DNA of 34,689 nt, from positions 1-34,689 of the forward strand of contig JACDEL010000028.1 of assembly GCA_013816405.1 (NCBI GenBank), in the 5' to 3' direction. Of this stretch, positions 7,981 through 22,974 are shown one piece after another (position 1 is the first letter of the stretch; every line of letters starts with the position of its first letter). This stretch comes from Chloroflexota bacterium (GTDB taxonomy: Bacteria; Chloroflexota; Limnocylindria; QHBO01). Both the position numbers and the translations under genes were made by a program. The notes beneath the pieces are model-generated. The model was not told where the DNA came from and did no database searches. It worked only from the letters and a program-made list of their open reading frames with translations.

Positions 7981-9228
7981 TCACCGATCAAGCCCATTGG
8001 GGCGTCCGATTCGCCGCGCGGGAAGGGTCGGATGGAAGGTCGCGCCACCGTAGGATTCGACCAGTCCGCGAGCTTCCAGCAGGGTCAAGGTCGCCGCCAC
8101 CGTCCCGGTTGCCAGGTGCGTTCGCCCGATCAGCTCCTCGATCGAGCCGGGGCGCTGGAGCAGGGCGTGGAGCACCATCGCTTCCGAATCCGAGAGGCTG
8201 GCGACGCTCACCGGCCGGCCGCCGGACTCCGCGCCGATACGATGCAGCAGCGCGCCGGCCGAGGTGACGATCGTCGCCTGGTGGTCCGCGATCAGCCGGT
8301 TGCAGCCACGCGACGCGATGGCGTCGATCGGACCGGGGACGGCGAACACCTCGCGGCCGTGATCAATCGCCGCAGCGGCGGTGAGGAGCGCCCCGGATCG
8401 ATCCGGCGCCTCGACCACCACCACCGCGCGTGCCAGGCCGGCGATGATCCGGTTGCGCCGAGCGAAGTCCGGCTTGCCAGGAGCGTGGCCGGGCGCGAGC
8501 TCGGAAACGAGGGCCCCGCCCGTCGCCACCAGCCGGGCGGCCAGGTCGCGGTGGCGAGGTGGATAGATGCGATCGAGTGGCGACGGCATGACCGCGACGC
8601 TCAGTCCGCCGGCCGCGATGGCGGCCAGGTGCGCCTGCGCGTCGATCCCGATCGCGAGCCCGCTGACCACCGTGACGCCTGCATGCGCCAACTCCTCGGC
8701 GATCTCGGCCGCGCAGGAGCGCCCGTAGCCACTGGCGCGGCGGGTGCCCACGATGGCGACGCAAGGTCGCCTCATCGAGGCGGGATCGCCGGCCAGGTAC
8801 AGGACCGGCGGGCGTGGATCGGCCGCGCTCAGAGCTGCCGGATATGCAGGATCGAGGGCGGTGAGAATGATGCCGCCACACCCCTGCGTTGCCTCCGCGA
8901 TGCGCCCGGCCACGCGTGTGGCCCCCTCGCGACTTAATCGTGCTATGCCAGCGGCAGCGTCATCCGGCACGCGCGGCAAGGTCTCCAGCAGCGCCGGCCC
9001 GGCAGCCCACGCAGCCCGGGCGCTGCCGAACCGTCGCAGCAACCGGGCGAATCCGACCGGACCAACGCCGGGAACCAGCGAGATGGTGATCCAGTACGGG
9101 GCCTCGGCCTCTCGGTCGAGCTCATCGAGATCAATCCCGGTCCAGCCACCATGCTCGGCGCGTCCGCCCGCCGCCCGGGCCGGCTGCGATTCTTCCAGGA
9201 CGGGTCCCATGGCCCCGACCCCGATCAC
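7981..9228 (-). CDS. dprA: DNA-processing protein DprA
   Basis: A 415-residue DprA/Smf protein, which loads RecA on incoming single-stranded DNA during natural transformation. A helix-hairpin-helix-like N-region (VPGVGPVGFARLLRRFG, near residue 52) precedes the Rossmann-like core with AIVGTRRASGYG, VVSGLAIGIDAQAH, SPLDRIYPP, ARRNRIIAGL and GALLTAAAAIDHGREVFAVPG. A DprA-type winged helix closes it (about 345-405). The GTG at 9228 overlaps the comM stop as GTGA, the usual comM-dprA coupling. A start at ATG 9210 is also possible. DprA looks intact although comM upstream is broken, so its expression may now depend on a different promoter. Confidence 0.95.
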   Translation of the reverse strand: MIGVGAMGPVLEESQPARAAGGRAEHGGWTGIDLDELDREAEAPYWITISLVPGVGPVGFARLLRRFGSARAAWAAGPALLETLPRVPDDAAAGIARLSREGATRVAGRIAEATQGCGGIILTALDPAYPAALSAADPRPPVLYLAGDPASMRRPCVAIVGTRRASGYGRSCAAEIAEELAHAGVTVVSGLAIGIDAQAHLAAIAAGGLSVAVMPSPLDRIYPPRHRDLAARLVATGGALVSELAPGHAPGKPDFARRNRIIAGLARAVVVVEAPDRSGALLTAAAAIDHGREVFAVPGPIDAIASRGCNRLIADHQATIVTSAGALLHRIGAESGGRPVSVASLSDSEAMVLHALLQRPGSIEELIGRTHLATGTVAATLTLLEARGLVESYGGATFHPTLPARRIGRPNGLDR

Positions 9229-10540
9229 GAGTCCACCGCCCCGCGGTAAGTCAGCGCCTCGTCAATGTGCTCTCGTGACACCTCGTCAGCGGCGGCGAGG
9301 TCGGCGATGGTGCGGGCCACGCGCGCAGCGCGATGGATGCGACGCGGGGACATCCGGAAGCGGCGAGCACGCTGCGCGAGGATGCCGTCGACAAGCAGGC
9401 CGAATCCGCGCTCCCGGTCGAGCGCGCCCGCCGCGAGGTCTCCATTGGCTAGCCCCTGCCGCCGCAGCTGGCGCTGCCATGCCTTGCCGACGCGGGCCGC
9501 CACGGCCTCGCTCGGTTCGACGCCGTCGGTGCTGGCCGCGGTGCCCGGAGCGGGCTGCGCCATCGTCACCCACAGGTCAATTCGGTCGCGCAGCGGGCCG
9601 GACAGGCGCGCGAGGTAGCGGCGGGCGGTGGCGTCCTCGCAGGTGCATTCCCGCTGCCGCGAGCCGCGCCAGCCGCAGGGGCACGGATTGAAGGCGGCCA
9701 GCAGCGTGAAGCGGGCCGGCATGGTCAGCGCACCATCCACTCGAGCGATGGTCACGCTCCCGCCTTCGAGGGGCTCTCGCAGGGCGTCGAGCGCATCCGA
9801 GCGAAATTGGAGCGTCTCGTCCAACAGCAGCATGCCGCGGTGCGCCAGCGACGCCTCGCCTGGCCGCACGCGCGGTCCGCCGCCGACGAGGGCCTGCGTG
9901 GAGATGGTGTGGTGCGGCGGGCGGAACGGTCGCTCACGAAGGAGGGGCGCGCGGCGATCGAGGAGCCCGGCGACGGAGTAGATGCGACTCACCTCGATCG
10001 CCTCGTCGTCCTCGAGCGGTGGCATTAGGTCGGGCGCGCACCGCAGCAACAGCGTCTTGCCGATTCCCGGCGGTCCGCACAGCGCGAGGTTGTGGTGGCC
10101 CGCCAGCGCGATCTCGAGGCCGCGGCGCGCGAGCGCCTGGCCCGCCACCTCGGCGAGATCAGGTCCCCGCCTGGCCGGGAGGGTCGCGGGGAGCTGCGTC
10201 GGCTCGGCCACCGGCAGGTTTCGCGTACGCCCGCCAGGTGAGCGACGGCCTCTCCCAACGAGGCGGCGCCGTGGACGCGCAGGCCTGCGACGGCGGCTGC
10301 CTCGCCGGTCGCTCCATTGGCCACGATAAGCGATGGAACGCCCGCGCCAAAGGAGGCGGCCGCGAGGGCCATCGTGCCCGGCACCGGGCGCACCGCGCCA
10401 TCCAGCCCCAGCTCCCCCACCATCGCGGTGTCGCGCAGGCGGTCGACGTCGCGCAGCTGGCCCGATGCGGCCAGGATCCCCACCGCGATCGGCAGGTCGT
10501 AGCCGGTGCCGTCCTTGGGCAGGTCTGCCGGGGCGAGGTT
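9225..10540 (-). pseudogene. comM: comM (YifB) 3' fragment, separated from its 5' end and frameshifted
   Basis: The C-terminal four-fifths of ComM, an AAA+ branch-migration helicase of natural transformation. It begins at NLAPADLPKDGTGYDLPIAV (from 10540), continues through VGELGLDGAVRPV and then changes frame between about 10220 and 10235. It resumes as DLAEVAGQALARRGLEIAL, Walker A GPPGIGKT, FRPPHHTIS, MLLLDETLQF, NPCPCG and SGPLRDRIDL, ending with VARTIADLAAADEVSREHIDEALTYRG. No start codon or ribosome site belongs to this piece. Its missing N-terminus is found at 14382-14598 on the same strand, so the gene was cut by inserted DNA. The frameshift could also be a sequencing or assembly error, but the separation cannot. 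Confidence 0.9.
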
Positions 10541-10554
10541 GTGTGAATGGGGTA
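10501..10554. repeat. Island junction on the comM 3' side
   Basis: This stretch spans the start of the comM 3' piece and the first bases of inserted DNA. It aligns without gaps to 11751-11804 (offset exactly 1250), with 40 of 54 bases identical by eye, including the insert-side block ATGGGGTA (10547-10554). Its core, 10522-10540, also matches 14382-14400 at the other end of the island in 16 of 19 bases. Confidence 0.72.
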
Positions 10555-10639
10555 TGGATCGGGGTTCTAGTGGCGGGTGGCCCTCCTGGAGGACGGGTTC
10601 TCCGACCTGCGCTAGGGTGGTAGGGTGGGTGATACAGGC

Positions 10640-10669
10640 TTGCCGCGGCCGCGCAGCGTCGCCTATGAT
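10640..10669 (+). promoter_or_regulatory. Candidate promoter in the island
   Basis: TTGCCG (10640-10645), an 18-base spacer and TATGAT (10664-10669). Transcription would begin near 10676, about 40 bases before the ATG at 10717. It sits about 100 bases inside the island, so the cassette appears to carry its own promoter. Confidence 0.5.
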
Positions 10670-10716
10670 CGGCGGAGCGCTGACGCCATCGAAGCGCACC
10701 AGGCAGCAGGGGCGAA

Positions 10717-11505
10717 ATGCCACACACGTTCAGGGCACTCTGGTCTCCGACGAGGTGCCCAGCGACGCGACCCTTGCTCCGGCATACCATTCCTGGCAAG
10801 CCCCGGCGTCCGAGGGCGAGCGAAGCGCCAGGCAGCACCGGGACCGCGACCGCCGAACCGACCTCCGCATTGCCCATTGACCTGCCCCGTCCGACCGACA
10901 TCCCGACCGACGGCTCCTGCGAGCAGGGACACGTCTGCCTGGGACTTCTGGAGCCCGGGACGACCTACACGACGACCGAGTTCGCGGCGCAGTTCAGCTT
11001 CACCGTGCCCGAGGCCGGGTGGCAGAACCGCGTCGACGCGGGACACACCATCCAGTTGCTGCCTATCGCCGTCCCCGGAGACGTGGTGGTCTTCTTCCCC
11101 GATCCTCGGGCCACGGATGCGCTCGGACAGTACGAGGCTGGCATCGGCAGCAGCGTCCAGGACCTTGCGACATGGCTGGTGGCGAACCCCCTGCTTGACG
11201 TCACACCAGCGACCGCGGTGACGGTCGGCGGTCTGACCGGGTTGCGCATGGATGTCAGGCTGGCGGACAAGACGCACAACTCCGGCCCGACGGACTGCCC
11301 CGTGCAGGCGTGCCTCGTCTACTTTGCCGGGAGCGATCCAGAGTCATGGAGCTACGGGGTCATCGGCTCCGAGGCGCAGCGGATCTACCTCCTGACGAGG
11401 CCCGAGGGGGTCGTGGCGATCATCGTCGACTCATGGGACGGCACGACCTTCGACACGCTTGCCGAGGCATCCGACGCGATCCTCGCATCGGTCACCTTCA
11501 AGTAG
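10717..11505 (+). CDS. Unrecognised protein with an extracellular-type domain, no signal peptide
   Basis: A 262-residue protein of unknown function. From about residue 68 it has a beta-rich domain (CEQGHVCLGLLEPGTTYTT, FSFTVPEAGWQN, GLRMDVRLADK, IYLLTRPEGVVAIIVDSWDG, ending ASDAILASVTFK). It resembles secreted or lipoprotein C-terminal domains of GC-rich soil bacteria. A low-complexity TATAEPTSALPIDLPRPTD linker precedes it, as after a lipoprotein anchor. However, the first 40 residues are arginine- and proline-rich and contain no signal peptide or lipobox in any forward frame. Either the N-terminus was lost when the cassette formed, or the protein now stays in the cytoplasm. ATG 10717 has AGGGG four bases upstream. 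A hairpin follows the stop. Confidence 0.6.
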   Translation: MPHTFRALWSPTRCPATRPLLRHTIPGKPRRPRASEAPGSTGTATAEPTSALPIDLPRPTDIPTDGSCEQGHVCLGLLEPGTTYTTTEFAAQFSFTVPEAGWQNRVDAGHTIQLLPIAVPGDVVVFFPDPRATDALGQYEAGIGSSVQDLATWLVANPLLDVTPATAVTVGGLTGLRMDVRLADKTHNSGPTDCPVQACLVYFAGSDPESWSYGVIGSEAQRIYLLTRPEGVVAIIVDSWDGTTFDTLAEASDAILASVTFK

Positions 11506-11550
11506 GCCCCAAGGGTCTGGTAGCACCCCGGCTAATCGAGTGCCGCAGCG

Positions 11551-11590
11551 TCCGGACGAGCGGGGGAGGGTCTCCCCGCCCCCGCCCGGA
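11551..11590. terminator. GC-rich hairpin after the orphan domain gene
   Basis: TCCGG (11551-11555) pairs with CCGGA (11586-11590) and GCGGGGG (11560-11566) with CCCCCGC (11579-11585). The hairpin lies between the plus-strand gene ending at 11505 and the minus-strand remnant ending at 11594, so it may act in both directions. There is no clear T-run. Confidence 0.45.
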
Positions 11591-11593
11591 TGG

Positions 11594-11750
11594 TCACATG
11601 GCGACGAGGGCTTCCTCGGCCGCCCCGTTGGCGGAGGTGCTGATCACGGTCGGCATCCCATCGGGGCCGGTTTCGGCCACCGCCTGAGCCTCCTTGGCGT
11701 ATTCCTTCGACACCGCCGCGTTCGACGAATTCTTCGCGTAAGAACGCCTA
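11594..11750 (-). pseudogene. Remnant of an unrecognised gene, 3' end only
   Basis: On the minus strand an open frame runs from the internal comM-like joint to a TGA at 11594. It ends KEYAKEAQAVAETG, then PTVISTSANGAAEEALVAM. Codon use is like the surrounding genes, and the alanine/glutamate-rich tail looks like a real protein C-terminus. There is no start or ribosome site, and the frame begins at the junction repeat, which suggests the 5' part was lost at integration. I do not recognise the family. Confidence 0.3.
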
Positions 11751-11804
11751 GGCCGGTGCCCTCCTTCGGAAGGTGGGCCGGGGCGAATCTGGAGTTATGG
11801 GGTA
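11751..11804. repeat. Internal comM-like junction repeat
   Basis: An extra copy of the comM target inside the island. On the minus strand it encodes FAPAHLPKEGTG, close to the ComM sequence LAPADLPKEG. It aligns ungapped with 10501-10554, including the non-comM block ATGGGGTA (11797-11804) at the same spacing. It is therefore more than leftover comM: it repeats the complete cassette junction. Confidence 0.68.
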
Positions 11805-12151
11805 GGAGGGGCAAACGCGAGCCTAGTCGGTTGCCCCATGCTCGGCGGCCTCCTTGGAAGCCCTGTTCCTCCCCACCGGTCGCGGCCGTGGCCGCTCGAG
11901 ACTCCCACGCCGTCAACGTCCCGCCGCGCATGCTGCGGGCTTTGTTGGCCACTGGACGTCCGGGCGTAGCCTGCTCTCTAGCGCCAGGAATGCGATGAGG
12001 CCGGAGAGGAGATGACTGGTGAGGAACCAACGGCGGGTAGAACGTACTCGATGCCGCCGAGGAGTTGGGTAGCCCATCGGCAGGGTAGCGGCTAGCATCG
12101 GGGCATTCGAATATCGGTTCGGTGTTAGCCGCAGCAGCAGGGAGGCAGGCC
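11805..12151. other. Island spacer without a recognisable gene
   Basis: About 350 bases between the internal joint and the methyltransferase. No frame on either strand has gene-like composition together with a start and ribosome site. It presumably holds the methyltransferase promoter, but no convincing -35/-10 pair was found. Confidence 0.4.
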
Positions 12152-13207
12152 GTGCCACTGACGACGAATGCGCTCGAGCGCCTGATCCTGACGCGCCTCA
12201 ACTTGGCGCCCGCCCTGCTGCTCGACTACTTCTCAACACTCGGCTTCCGAGCCGCGCTCGTGGGCGTTCGGCTGGGCGTCTTCGACGCGCTGGAGAAAGG
12301 GCCTCGCACCGCTGCAGACGTCGCAGAGCAGCTTGGGACTGATCCAAGGGGAACGGAGTCCCTGCTGGAGGCACTCACGTCCCTCCAGTACCTGCGGCGT
12401 CAGGGGGACCGGTATGCGAACCGCCCAACGGCAAGTCGCTGGCTCACAGAGGCGCGGGACCCCGCGTTCGTCGAGGCGACCCGTTTCCTGGAGATGGCCG
12501 CCTTCGACCTGTGGGGGGACCTGGAAGAGGCGGTGCGCTCCGGCCGGCCGGTTAGGGCGTTCTACCCATGGCTCGAGGCCGATCCGCAGCGTTCAGCTAC
12601 CTTCCAGGCTTGGACGCTGTGGACCGCCCGTGATCTGGCTCCCGAGATCGTTCGACGCGTGCCCCTTCCGGGTGGCGCCCAGCGGCTGATCGATGTCGGG
12701 GGCGGCCATGGACGGTATGCGGCGGCGTACTGCCGTGCCACTGCCGGCCTGTCGGCCGTCGTCTTCGACCTCCCGATTGCGTTGCGCTCCGCGGAGGATC
12801 TGCTCGACGAGCCGGACCTGGATGGGCGGATTCAGCTGCAGCCGGGCGACTTTCTGACCGACGAGCTCGGTGCCGGCTTCGACGTCGCCCTCGTGATCAA
12901 CATCGTCCACGGGCTGAGCGAAGACGAGAACCGCCGGCTCATCGGGCGAGTCTCGGCAGCGCTGAATCCGGGCGGCCGCATCGTGCTCCTCGAGCAGTTC
13001 GCCGGCCGGGCGCCGGGGCCTGCCGTCTATGCCATCAACCGCCTGCTCGACCTGACCTATCACCTGGTTCTGAAGGGGCGCACCTACCGATTCGCCGACG
13101 CCGTCGGATGGCTGACTGATGCCGGCTTCGGCACACCGAAGCGGATCAACCTGCGCTCAGCGCCAGGGGCGAGCCTCGCGACGGCGACGAAGCCTCGCAG
13201 CGGTTGA
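12152..13207 (+). CDS. SAM-dependent O-methyltransferase, natural-product type
   Basis: A 351-residue methyltransferase of the Methyltransf_2 (plant COMT/bacterial tailoring) type. An N-terminal winged-helix dimerisation domain (about residues 20-100; GVFDALEKGPRTAADVAEQL is typical) is followed by the Rossmann fold with the SAM loop LIDVGGGHGRY at 179-189. INIVHGLSEDE, further on, corresponds to the LHDWSDE segment that carries the catalytic histidine in this family. GTG 12152 is preferred over an in-frame GTG 30 bases upstream because GGAGG lies 6 bases before it. The enzyme would methylate a hydroxyl on a small aromatic or polyketide-like substrate, which is unknown; no biosynthetic partners are nearby. 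Its place in the comM island implies acquisition by transfer. Confidence 0.87.
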   Translation: MPLTTNALERLILTRLNLAPALLLDYFSTLGFRAALVGVRLGVFDALEKGPRTAADVAEQLGTDPRGTESLLEALTSLQYLRRQGDRYANRPTASRWLTEARDPAFVEATRFLEMAAFDLWGDLEEAVRSGRPVRAFYPWLEADPQRSATFQAWTLWTARDLAPEIVRRVPLPGGAQRLIDVGGGHGRYAAAYCRATAGLSAVVFDLPIALRSAEDLLDEPDLDGRIQLQPGDFLTDELGAGFDVALVINIVHGLSEDENRRLIGRVSAALNPGGRIVLLEQFAGRAPGPAVYAINRLLDLTYHLVLKGRTYRFADAVGWLTDAGFGTPKRINLRSAPGASLATATKPRSG

Positions 13208-13215
13208 CTTCCAGC

Positions 13216-13398
13216 TCATCGGGCTTGGGGGCCTGGTATGGCCCGAGGCGTAGAAGGCCGGGGTCGCCTGCACCCTACCGATCGCTGCGACTGCCGCAGC
13301 GCCGGGTTGCGGTACCCGGTGCAGATCACCGGGCGACCAAGGCGGACGTGTTCGGTGGAGGACGCCAGCGCGGCCAGGGTGGTGAAGGACTCGAAGGG
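13216..13398 (-). pseudogene. Luciferase-like (F420-type) monooxygenase remnant
   Basis: On the minus strand, directly after an in-frame TGA, the frame reads PFESFTTLAALA, STEHVRLG, and TGYRNPAL, then degenerates to a stop at 13216. These are the conserved strand-helix segments of the luciferase-like monooxygenase N-terminal half (WDPFESFTTLAALAAxTERVRLG and YRNPALLAKMA). Both the start of the protein and everything after the YRNPAL segment are missing. It is a short decayed fragment between the methyltransferase and the lipoprotein gene. Confidence 0.55.
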
Positions 13399-13429
13399 TC
13401 AGCTCGTCGGTGGGCTCGGGTTCGGTCTG

Positions 13430-14251
13430 CTATGAACTCGGTTGCCAGGTTCCCGTGAACACCCAAGCCCTACCGGGACACGGGTCGTCCGTGCCGCTTG
13501 TGGAAAGGATGAGATCCGCCCCGCTGATCTGCCAGGTCATCGTCGTGATGCCCTCGGATTCACAGAAGCCACCGCGAGCCTCTTCTGGCACGATCCAACT
13601 TGTCGGACCGTACAGCGTCAATACCCCATCCGAGGTGGCTTCGAAAGCCTCGGTCCCCTTGCCGCCGAGTGGGTCATCGAACCGGATCACGCCATCAGCA
13701 CCGAACTCGATACGCCAGACGCCATCCGGCATGTCACACGTCGCACATCGCGGCTCAGAAGGCTGGTGTTGGAATCCCTTGCCCTCGAGTTCGGCGGGCA
13801 CCAACGGCCGGGTGGTGGTCACGTTGGCTTCGGACGTCGCCGCGACCCCGGAGGTGGTGTAAACGTCCACCCTTAGCCGATGACTCCCGGGATCAAGCAC
13901 GGAAGGGACTAACAGGTTGCCGTCGTCGTTGAAACTGTAGGGAGCGTTGTGCTCGACCCAGGCGAGGTCGCCGTCGATGAGGAATTCGACCCGGTCGACC
14001 GGCGAGGTGGCTGACTGCCCGGTGACGGTGGCGATCCACGCCGTCGGGGTCGTCAGGTTTGTCCCGTCGGCTATGGATGACGTGACTGCCAGCGGCGGCG
14101 TGGCGGCGATCGACGTCGCAACGGGTGTTTCGGACGTTATGGGCTCGGAGGACGTAGTGGTGGTGGCACCTCCGCATCCCGCCATGACGAGCACCAAGCC
14201 GAGAACCCCGATGAATCTGAAGGTTGCGTATCGCACTGATCGTTTCCTCAT
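13430..14251 (-). CDS. Lipoprotein with bacterial Ig-like domain
   Basis: A 273-residue predicted lipoprotein. The signal has arginines and lysine (MRKRSVRYATFRF), a hydrophobic stretch and the lipobox VMAGC, so C25 would be lipidated after cleavage. A threonine/serine-rich linker leads to an Ig-like domain (about residues 75-145) with VDRVEFLIDGDLAW and LDPGSHRLRVDVYTTSG, the signature of Ig domains on cell-surface proteins. The C-terminal 110 residues form a separate beta-rich domain (GVWRIEFGADGVIRFDD ... MTWQISGADLILS ... FTGTWQPS) with paired cysteines and a lipocalin-like strand pattern. The function is unknown. It is the last gene of the larger island unit, reading towards the comM 3' side. 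Confidence 0.8.
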   Translation of the reverse strand: MRKRSVRYATFRFIGVLGLVLVMAGCGGATTTTSSEPITSETPVATSIAATPPLAVTSSIADGTNLTTPTAWIATVTGQSATSPVDRVEFLIDGDLAWVEHNAPYSFNDDGNLLVPSVLDPGSHRLRVDVYTTSGVAATSEANVTTTRPLVPAELEGKGFQHQPSEPRCATCDMPDGVWRIEFGADGVIRFDDPLGGKGTEAFEATSDGVLTLYGPTSWIVPEEARGGFCESEGITTMTWQISGADLILSTSGTDDPCPGRAWVFTGTWQPSS

Positions 14252-14381
14252 GCTGGGGTGAGCGACGGAATCCGTCGCGCTTGTTCCGATACGGGGTCGC
14301 GAGGGAACGTTCGTGCTCAGAATGGTGGAGGCGACGACGGGACTCGAAGCAGTGTACGCGCGGTCTTGCAGTACGCGGTAG

Positions 14382-14400
14382 GGTCCGCCGGCGAGAGGTT
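14382..14400. repeat. Island junction on the comM 5' side
   Basis: The last 19 bases of the comM 5' piece, encoding NLSPAD on the minus strand, match 10522-10540 in 16 of 19 positions. Beyond it, inside the island, the sequence no longer fits ComM and has two CGCGTAC copies (within 14346-14377). The crossover or duplication must lie within this core. Confidence 0.65.
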
Positions 14401-14598
14401 GATGGTGATCCTGCGCGCCGGCACTTCAAAGCCGCTGTTTCGCAGGGCGCTCCGTACCCGTTCCCGGGCCTCCTGCACCTGGCTCCCGGCCAGGCCCACG
14501 ATGGTGAGGGCCGGCAGGCCGAAGGCGACGTCGACCTCGACGCGCACCGGCAGGCCGTCGACGCCCATGATCGAAGCGCTGAGCGTCTCCGCCAGCAC
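14382..14598 (-). pseudogene. comM: comM (YifB) 5' fragment
   Basis: The first 72 codons of ComM. From the GTG at 14598, preceded by GAGGTGG five bases upstream, it reads VLAETLSASIMGVDG, VEVDVAFGLPALTIVGL, VQEARERVRSALRNSGFEVPARRITINLSPAD. This is the ComM N-terminal domain of the ribosomal-S5-like fold. After NLSPAD the frame runs into island DNA (PTAYCKTARTLL) and stops near 14317, so the product would be a truncated protein of about 90 residues without the ATPase. The rest of the gene starts at 10540 with the same residues (NLAPAD), which shows the cut was within that motif. Confidence 0.88.
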
Positions 14599-14739
14599 AG
14601 GCACCACCTCGCCTCGGGGGAGGCGGATCGGAAAGAGGTGCCGGCCGCGCACCTGCTCGCCTCCCAAACTCCGGCGGCGACCGGCTGAGCAGGAGGCTAG
14701 GGATCGAGCCTTATCGGCCCATTAGGCGACGCTTATCCG

Positions 14740-15927
14740 TCAAGCGCGAGCAGGGACGGCGTCGGGGGCGAAGGCCTTGTCGATGGCCCTGGCGAAGGCC
14801 AGCACGCTCTTGCTCAAGGGGGCATCGGCACGGCTGGACATGAACGGCTCGCCCGAGTTGAGGGCGCTGATTGCGCCCCGGTACTCGTTGATGACCTGGT
14901 AATCGATCTTGCGGCCAAGCGCCGACTCCGCGTTGCTGACGTTGATGCCGGTGTACGCATTCGACCGATTCAGCACGAGCTGCACCTTGCCCTGCTCGTA
15001 GCCGAGGCTGACCATCGTCTCGAGCACGAGCGGGACGTTCTTCAGGCACGAGAGGTCAGCGGTCATAACCACGAAGATGACATCTGCCTCGTCGAACAGC
15101 TGGAGGTTGAAGTCGTCGATCGCCTGCGACATGTCCACCAGCGTGTAGTCGTAGAGCCGCCGCGACAGACTCAAGATGTTGCTGATCACGGTCGGCGCCT
15201 GGCGCTGCCGCTCGACGACCAGGTCAGCCGAGGCGGGGGTCGGCGGAGCCAGCAGCAATTCGATCTGAGATCGATGCTTGACCATCATCGTGCGAAAGAG
15301 GTCCAGGTCCAGGTCCGGCTCGCTCACCGCGCTCACGATCGAGGGGGTATCGAGGCCCAGGTCCAGGAAGACGCGCAGGTCGCCGAACTGGAGGTTGGCG
15401 TCGATCAGCGCGGTCCGTCTGTTGAGCTCGCGCGCGAGGCCGATGGCGGTGTTGATGGCGATGGTCGTCGTCCCCACGCCGCCCTTGGCGGGGTAGAAGG
15501 CGCACAGCTTGCCGATGGTGGGTGCCTCGCCCCCCGCCTTGGCGCTGACAGGAGCGCTCTGCGCCATGAGCGCCTTGATGCGCGCCATCAGCTCGAGCGG
15601 GTGGAACGGCTTGACGATGTCGTCGTCGGCGCCGGCGCGGAGGCCCCTGACGCGCTGCCCCACGTCCGCCTCGGAGGTCAGCATGATGATCGGGATGTGG
15701 CCGACACCCTTCTCGGCGGCCCGGATCTGCTGCGTGGCTGCGTAGCCGTCGAGCTTGGGCATCGCCATGTCCATGAGGATCAGGTCCGGCCTGGCTTCGA
15801 GGGCCATCTGCACGCCGGCGGCGCCGTCGGACGCGACCGTGACCTCGTACCCCTCCTGCTTGAGGGCAAAGACCAGGACGCGCTGGATATTCAGGTCGTC
15901 GTCGACGACCAGGACTTTCGTGGCCAT
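14740..15927 (-). CDS. cpaE: Receiver-domain/CpaE-type ATPase fusion
   Basis: A 395-residue protein. Residues 4-118 form a response-regulator receiver with an intact acidic pocket (D9-D11), phosphoacceptor D53 (LILMDMAMPKLDG), T84 and K106 (VKPF). Residues 138-390 form a ParA/MinD-family ATPase of the CpaE/TadZ type with the deviant Walker A PAKGGVGTTT (K148-T154) and VDMSQ as the Walker B region. TadZ/CpaE proteins place Tad pilus machinery at a site in the cell. ATG 15927 follows GGGGAG by 4 bases; a more distal in-frame ATG lies inside the hydrolase gene. The tadE and tadG genes from 22369 onward are probable functional partners. An unbroken phosphorylation site is notable, because CpaE receivers are often degenerate. 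Confidence 0.9.
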   Translation of the reverse strand: MATKVLVVDDDLNIQRVLVFALKQEGYEVTVASDGAAGVQMALEARPDLILMDMAMPKLDGYAATQQIRAAEKGVGHIPIIMLTSEADVGQRVRGLRAGADDDIVKPFHPLELMARIKALMAQSAPVSAKAGGEAPTIGKLCAFYPAKGGVGTTTIAINTAIGLARELNRRTALIDANLQFGDLRVFLDLGLDTPSIVSAVSEPDLDLDLFRTMMVKHRSQIELLLAPPTPASADLVVERQRQAPTVISNILSLSRRLYDYTLVDMSQAIDDFNLQLFDEADVIFVVMTADLSCLKNVPLVLETMVSLGYEQGKVQLVLNRSNAYTGINVSNAESALGRKIDYQVINEYRGAISALNSGEPFMSSRADAPLSKSVLAFARAIDKAFAPDAVPARA

Positions 15928-22368: not shown

Positions 22369-22974
22369 GTGCCGGTCAGGTCCAAGGGGGTTCACAAGCA
22401 TTCGCCTCGGCCGAGCCGGCGGGCAGCACGCACGCCGCGCGGGCAGGCGCTGGTCGAGTTCGCGCTCATCCTCCCGATCCTGCTCCTGCTGGTCGGCGGC
22501 ATCATCCAGTACGGCGTGATCTTCGCGACGAAGCACTCCCTGATCCAGGTTGGTCGCGATGCCGGGCGATGGGCGGCAACCCAGGAGTTCAACCCCTGCT
22601 CAAGCGCAGCGCTGGCCGCCCCAGCGCAGCCCCTCACCGAGGCCGATGCCATCGCGCAGCAATCGCGGCTGATGGGGTACTCGGCCGGCGACTGGAACGC
22701 CGGCACGTTCACCACCTACGCGGATAACGCAGCACTGCCCGCGACGCCGCCGAGCACCGAGGGGGTCGAGGTCGTGTGGTCCTACGGCAACGGCCAACCG
22801 TGCCCGACCATCAACAGCACCACGGCGGCGTATGTGACGATTCGCCTGAGCCACCGAGCGCCGGTCCTGCTGCCGGGGATCCAATTCCTGCCCGCCTTGG
22901 GAACGTGCGACCCAAGCGGCTGTTACCTGGCCATCAGCACCACAGCACGGTTCCGCATGGAGGCCCGTCCGTGA
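22369..22974 (+). CDS. tadE: TadE-like pseudopilin/surface protein
   Basis: A 201-residue TadE-family protein. After about 28 basic residues the hallmark GQALVEFALILPILLLLVGG begins, a TadE-type membrane helix, followed by IFATKHSLIQVGRDAGRW. The exported part has four cysteines and ends with LPGIQFLPALGTC, then ISTTARFRMEARP. TadE-type proteins are minor pseudopilins or envelope parts of Tad (tight adherence) pili. The GTG at 22369 follows AGGGGAG and is preferred to upstream in-frame starts because it sits at the same place as the TTG of operon 2. The stop overlaps the next start as TGATG. It is clearly paralogous to the next gene. Confidence 0.85.
   Translation: MPVRSKGVHKHSPRPSRRAARTPRGQALVEFALILPILLLLVGGIIQYGVIFATKHSLIQVGRDAGRWAATQEFNPCSSAALAAPAQPLTEADAIAQQSRLMGYSAGDWNAGTFTTYADNAALPATPPSTEGVEVVWSYGNGQPCPTINSTTAAYVTIRLSHRAPVLLPGIQFLPALGTCDPSGCYLAISTTARFRMEARP

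Follow-up and report, generated by a model that had tools for sequence, protein, structure and literature searches.

The DNA-uptake gene comM of a soil-type Chloroflexota bacterium appears, on balance, to have been disrupted by a short series of mobile gene cassettes. An insert of 3.84 kb (10541–14381) interrupts the minus-strand gene and leaves it in two parts. The insert is a mosaic of three cargo genes and fragments of genes for tRNA-Cys, an LLM-class oxidoreductase, ssb and comM. The window, i.e., the whole stretch of 34,689 nt that was analysed, comes from a fragmented metagenome assembly of 102 contigs, in which the insertion was observed once. Features of the region are listed in Table 1.

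Table 1. Features of the interrupted comM gene and its insert (positions in the window)
Feature	Position	Strand	Remarks
comM 3′ part, AAA domain	9225–10540	−	Restarts at 10540 with NLAPADLPKDGTG; 2-nt frameshift near 10221
Left junction	10522–10554	−	Element end TACCCCAT + TCACAC + core AACCTCGCCCCGGCAGACC (NLAPAD type), into host comM
Cargo, 262-aa protein	10717–11505	+	Pieces resemble G011 C16
ssb C-terminal fragment	11596–11708	−	76% to C92; 71% to L149:4161-4308, whose ORF matches Pfam SSB
32-bp segment	11712–11743	+	97% identical to 3′ end of a contig C65 gene
Middle copy (B site)	11751–11804	−	TACCCCAT + 8 + comM-derived 35 bp (FAPAHLPKEGTG)
A-left half	11880–11924	−	GACGTTGACGGCG...CACGGCCGCG; 34/41; ends methyltransferase cassette
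Cargo, O-methyltransferase	12122–13207	+	Dimerisation + Methyltransf_2 (Pfam)
A core site, right half conserved	13256–13289	−	CGATCGGTAGGGTGCAGGCGACCCCGGCC; 28/29; starts methyltransferase cassette
LLM-class oxidoreductase gene fragment, 138 bp	13292–13429	−	82% to own C78 gene; directly upstream of A core
Cargo, lipoprotein-like protein, 273 aa	13430–14251	−	Big_7 domain (Pfam)
tRNA-Cys 3′ half fragment	14310–14371	−	Anticodon loop to 3′ end + ~20 bp; 85% to C84 tRNA-Cys
Right core copy	14382–14400	−	AACCTCTCGCCGGCGGACC, host-type NLSPAD; 16/19 identical to 10522–10540; candidate attachment core common to both island ends
comM 5′ part	14383–14667	−	Translation ends ..RRITINLSPAD (tblastn); ChlI (PF13541)

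Interruption of comM and the ends of the insert

The genome carries a single comM copy, adjoined by dprA. Among the related genomes checked, comM is read without a break at every other locus spanning the insertion site; that the insertion was found in this genome alone counts against the explanation preferred below. The 3′ part is identical to comM of G002, a sister species, at 1122 of 1314 positions, with substitutions distributed 29/20/143 by codon position, and its one frameshift is the 2-nt insertion near 10221. This pattern indicates that comM probably retained its function up to recent times, and the disruption looks recent.

In comM orientation, the right junction is ATCAACCTCTCGCCGGCGGACC joined to CTACCGCGTACTGC, and the right arm of the element, read from 14381 downward, is GGACC followed by CTACCGCGTACTGC. 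The left junction joins TACCCCATTCACACAACCTCGCCCCGGCAGACC to TGCCCAAGGACGG. An imperfect direct repeat of 19–21 bp lies at both ends of the insert, with three differences between the copies and AACCTCNCNCCGGCNGACC common to both. The right core codes for Ser (NLSPAD), as in G002 and G003, and the left for Ala (NLAPAD), as in most of the family, suggesting that one core copy came with the element; a drifted target duplication would be a hard source for such a difference. An attachment-core direct repeat at both ends (16/19) is one mark of tyrosine-integrase islands. The other, an integrase gene of the island's own, is lacking here, as Pfam searches of the three main ORFs of the insert detected neither integrase nor transposase; this lack of a recombinase in the insert counts against the explanation preferred below.

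The methyltransferase unit has the apparent extent of a complete cassette, from the core right half (13289) to A-left (11880). The 262-aa protein gave no match in Pfam, and a search of the insert against Rfam returned nothing relevant. Counterparts of the oxidoreductase fragment, the family name of which was taken from the protein and not from a profile, occur in most genomes of the family. The tRNA-Cys fragment starts ~10 bp inside the right junction, and the same tRNA half is also found at the end of an element on contig C84 of this genome. That element (L068/L069, G000 C84:14938-43121) measures ~28 kb, occupies tRNA-Cys and encodes an integrase of its own (C84:15113); it includes polysaccharide-type genes and two A cores (22149 and 42928), and a half-tRNA repeat lies at the far end. 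Elsewhere in the window, ARAGORN predicted a tRNA-Asp (anticodon ATC) at 22675–22756 on the minus strand, within an apparent pilus-assembly-type coding region, and this is probably false.

The 54-base repeat and the comM-derived junction

The initial annotation drew attention to a gapless match between 10501–10554 and 11751–11804 (40/54 identical, spacing 1250), and this pair is indeed the strongest direct repeat of the 9200–14800 region (75% over 53). Failure against shuffled sequence had been named as grounds for discarding it; none of 1000 dinucleotide-preserving shuffles of the insert reached 40 identities, the maximum being 33. The match had been described as covering both comM-derived sequence and an insert-specific block. 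Both lie in the same register at the two copies, and the comM-derived part alone (10501–10540) is significant (31/40; shuffle maximum 27), but the insert-specific ATGGGGTA is by itself not significant within the insert, so its support comes from recurrence elsewhere. TACCCCAT was rejected as an independent signal, since it was not significant in pairwise tests, and this counts against the preferred explanation.

The layout of this repeat, here called B, is TACCCCAT, about 8 bp, and then 28–35 bp of comM. In the middle copy, 34 bp have 97% identity with comM from a different genus within the family (L041), in agreement with the earlier proposal that it derives from the comM of another species. 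It runs on for ~19 bp in comM-like sequence (TTCCGAAGGAGGGCACCGG) and then into the ssb fragment. The array of G002, a genome in which comM is intact, contains two B copies, the first being CATACCCCTTAATCGAAGG-TTCGCCCCCGCGGATCTGCCGAAGGACGG, and another (TACCCCATTAGCGAAGATTCGCCCCGGCTGAGTTGCC) is found near a recombinase on contig C54 of the present genome. The middle copy matches the first G002 copy at 34 of 46 positions (0/300 shuffles), and since in both an ssb fragment comes after the comM piece, a common ancestral module is probable. The combined motif TACCCCNTNANNNNAGNTTCGCCCCNGC, searched with up to 2 mismatches, was found at three places only in 177 genomes of the class (the middle copy, C54 and the G002 array); as the pattern was written from these three known copies, this shows specificity and not independent discovery.

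Recurrence in the G002 array and near the C54 recombinase suggests that cassettes carry B as an attachment-type junction, in keeping with the annotation's reading of the motif as a junction at an attachment site. The accompanying expectation that the motif always marks island edges did not hold, as B copies sit inside arrays. The right arm at 14381 is unlike those of the other B copies and contains the tRNA-Cys fragment, and this also counts against the preferred explanation. With these points included, there is a slight preference for regarding B as a second kind of junction, in which an element end is followed by a comM-derived core.

A sites, the tRNA-Leu locus and its recombinases

The A repeat is present in ~30 copies in this genome (about 33 by BLAST, E below 0.001). 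Its core, CCGCGGCGATCGGTAGCGTGCAGGCGACCCCGGCC, is 33–35 bp long, and in many copies a conserved left part, GACGTTGACGGCGCGAGGAGCTCGAGCGGCGACGG, stands before it. Searches with the 26-base heart of the core at up to 3 mismatches gave 23 copies in this genome (control 0), two in G002, one in G003 and one, weak, in G011. The core is sharply bounded, with information content over 32 copies at background within a few bases of either edge, and shared blocks are bounded by it: L143/L144 begin at the left edge, and L069/L213 stop at the right edge. The copies occur in clusters, mostly separated by a single gene, which may lie on either strand. Core orientation was the same in 14/14 neighbouring pairs under 5 kb (our own count), as in integron-type tandem arrays. 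The cassette genes carry Pfam matches to a cyclase domain, FAD-binding, ice-binding, SnoaL, nucleoside deoxyribosyltransferase and Kelch domains, and many are of unknown type.

No GTTRRRY box, as found in attC sites, was seen by eye in the A core, the consensus and one copy folded no better than shuffles, the covariation term (+0.21) indicated no covariation, and Rfam gave no integron-site match to A. An attC-like hairpin was rejected, as GGCCGGGG and CCCCGGCC at the consensus ends are not kept across copies and covariation is lacking. A promoter function was likewise rejected, because genes behind A lie on either strand. No match was obtained in viral contigs, whether the comM-site pattern, the B motif or the A core was searched. 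One A-array (L142, G000 C73:9700-21000) lies between an intact rarA and, at its far end, a diverged rarA N-terminal fragment joined to the end of an abhydrolase gene. Another array contains c-di-GMP-II-GAG and c-di-GMP-II-GCG riboswitch matches above gathering scores (L213:11023-11118 and 12018-12102, plus strand), the first of them in a block shared with C84.

The gene order in G002 is tig, tRNA-Leu, tyrosine recombinase, A-array and conserved flank, and half of the tRNA-Leu is repeated at the far end of the element (54 bp, 96%), as for an attachment repeat. This element thus has an integrase, unlike the comM insert. In the present genome, the tRNA-Leu locus with its recombinase and array is divided between contigs C73 and C87, the ends of which overlap by 127 bases and probably join as one locus. 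These 127 bases are (near-)identical at contig ends of C73, C87 and C33 (L207, L213 and L147). Because breaks in the assembly coincide with repeats within the arrays, array sizes are lower bounds. The G003 tRNA-Leu locus has a single cassette of core, gene and A-left, and no recombinase was found there. A gene family beginning INTDGMAFIGPGSEWFW directly follows the core in G003, in C73 (48% identity) and, more distantly, in C54.

The recombinases, encoded in this genome on C54 (L058:3524-4426) and at tRNA-Leu (L207:7379-8317) and in G002 as P0005, keep RHRWY-type residues (by eye), and the nearest A core is 0.9–2.3 kb away. Against IntI profiles, the C54 recombinase scored 59.6 bits for TIGR02249 and 31.3 for NF011946 (cut-offs 265 and 435), and the best single IntI match across the present genome was 81.8 bits, XerC-like levels only. 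A relative of the array recombinase (47%) is encoded beside tRNA-His (L208:7766-8896), with no A cores in the 16 kb read.

Origin of the insert and relation to known systems

The explanation we lean towards is that the insert is a small mosaic array of the integron-like cassettes of this genus, which entered comM by core × core recombination. Cassettes would be joined at the 33–35 bp A core, as in the methyltransferase cassette, and an element-borne, comM-derived core would have recombined with the matching NL[S/A]PAD codons of the chromosomal gene, leaving the 19–21 bp imperfect repeat at both ends and inactivating comM. The likeliest agent would be a tyrosine recombinase acting in trans. The middle copy may represent a comM junction of earlier date that the array carried in, its source probably being another species. 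No empty allele within the species, circular form or tandem form was seen, which counts against this explanation.

The initial annotation took the 54-base pair as the trace of two tandem insertions at one comM attachment site, with the middle copy as an att hybrid. In favour of such an origin, the element end and the comM core stand in the same register and with the same spacing in both copies. However, the middle copy continues on its right side as foreign comM and an ssb fragment, not as the right arm found at 14381, which argues against a simple tandem hybrid, and the order of comM piece and ssb fragment occurs also in G002, whose comM is intact. Tandem insertion is thus unlikely, and the middle copy is more likely a junction already carried by the element. 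The chief alternative is homology-facilitated illegitimate recombination in the course of natural transformation. This process has been described for competent bacteria (PMC3240628), which counts in its favour. A short comM stretch would have paired at one end and an illegitimate join formed at the other, the rest being gene scraps. Short comM, ssb, LLM, tRNA-Cys and C65 pieces do lie side by side, dprA is the neighbouring gene, and the many fragments, being also compatible with this route, count against the preferred explanation. A join at a random place would not be expected to give a 19–21 bp repeat at both ends, though, nor the recurrence of the comM piece in the same register in other arrays, and we consider this rival fairly unlikely.

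Insertion of a transposon with a target duplication of ~19 bp that later diverged would also leave a direct repeat at both ends. It is highly improbable, as the three differences are coding-like changes that turn Ser into the family-consensus Ala, the three main ORFs include no transposase, and no terminal inverted repeats were noted. If A were a mere dispersed non-coding repeat (MITE- or REP-like) or a shared promoter, then the genes between copies would be ordinary ones. A does end shortly before some start codons, and its core is only ~35 bp, but core orientation is constant within each cluster while the genes behind it lie on either strand, one gene family directly follows the core at three loci, spread over two species, and shared blocks are bounded by the core, so this reading is quite unlikely. 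With modest confidence, we retain the view that comM serves as an insertion target of a cassette system that differs from the integrons known to date; related comM-like pieces occur also in the array of a sister species.

The system works like a sedentary chromosomal integron or CALIN, yet lacks two defining features, IntI and attC. Likenesses are the tandem, mostly one-gene cassettes, the constant orientation and species-typical sequence of the sites, and a home locus with a tyrosine recombinase alongside dispersed arrays without one; CALINs, which are attC clusters without integrase, have been proposed to arise by off-target insertion (PMC8618304). It differs from integrons in that its recombinases, as scanned in the present genome, are XerC-like and far below the IntI cut-off, the A site has no folded attC structure and no GTTRRRY by eye, and no attI was identified. 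The Xer-dependent dif/pdif modules of Acinetobacter (PMC6449649, PMC12907356) similarly have genes between short core sites and no recombinase in the module. In contrast to these, the A core (33–35 bp) is by eye unrelated in sequence to dif, with its 11+6+11 layout, its sites keep one orientation, and it is almost confined to one genus, with copy number varying between species. A is missing from most genomes of the family and so is not the chromosomal dif.

AbaR islands carry a transposition module and produce a 5-bp duplication. In the comM insert, the three main ORFs have no transposase domains of the kind expected for an AbaR/Tn7-like island, the 19–21 bp imperfect repeat stands in place of the 5-bp duplication, and cargo and size differ. 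The likeness lies in the target: comM is known to affect natural transformability and is a known island target in Acinetobacter, interrupted by AbaR-type islands (PMC7508600). Integron-like elements in rulB are also integrase-associated and inserted site-specifically in a protein-coding gene, but they have three recombinases and a 3 bp repeat (PMC4542609), against none inside the comM insert and its longer repeat.

A more far-reaching and tentative possibility, which we hold to be less probable than its opposite, is a cassette-capture system distinct from integrons. It would use a double-strand core of 33–35 bp, XerC-like tRNA-targeting recombinases in place of IntI, a tRNA-Leu home array of one to about ten cassettes depending on the species, and comM and ssb pieces as secondary attachment cores. 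If the preferred explanation is correct, Chloroflexota would have integron-like arrays that differ in site and in recombinase type, and search tools for IntI and attC would miss them. Cassette numbers at the home locus in the three related species are one, several and about ten, making gain, loss and off-target insertion open to study. The competence gene comM would be a casualty of the cassette system, a parallel to AbaR in Acinetobacter reached by another route.
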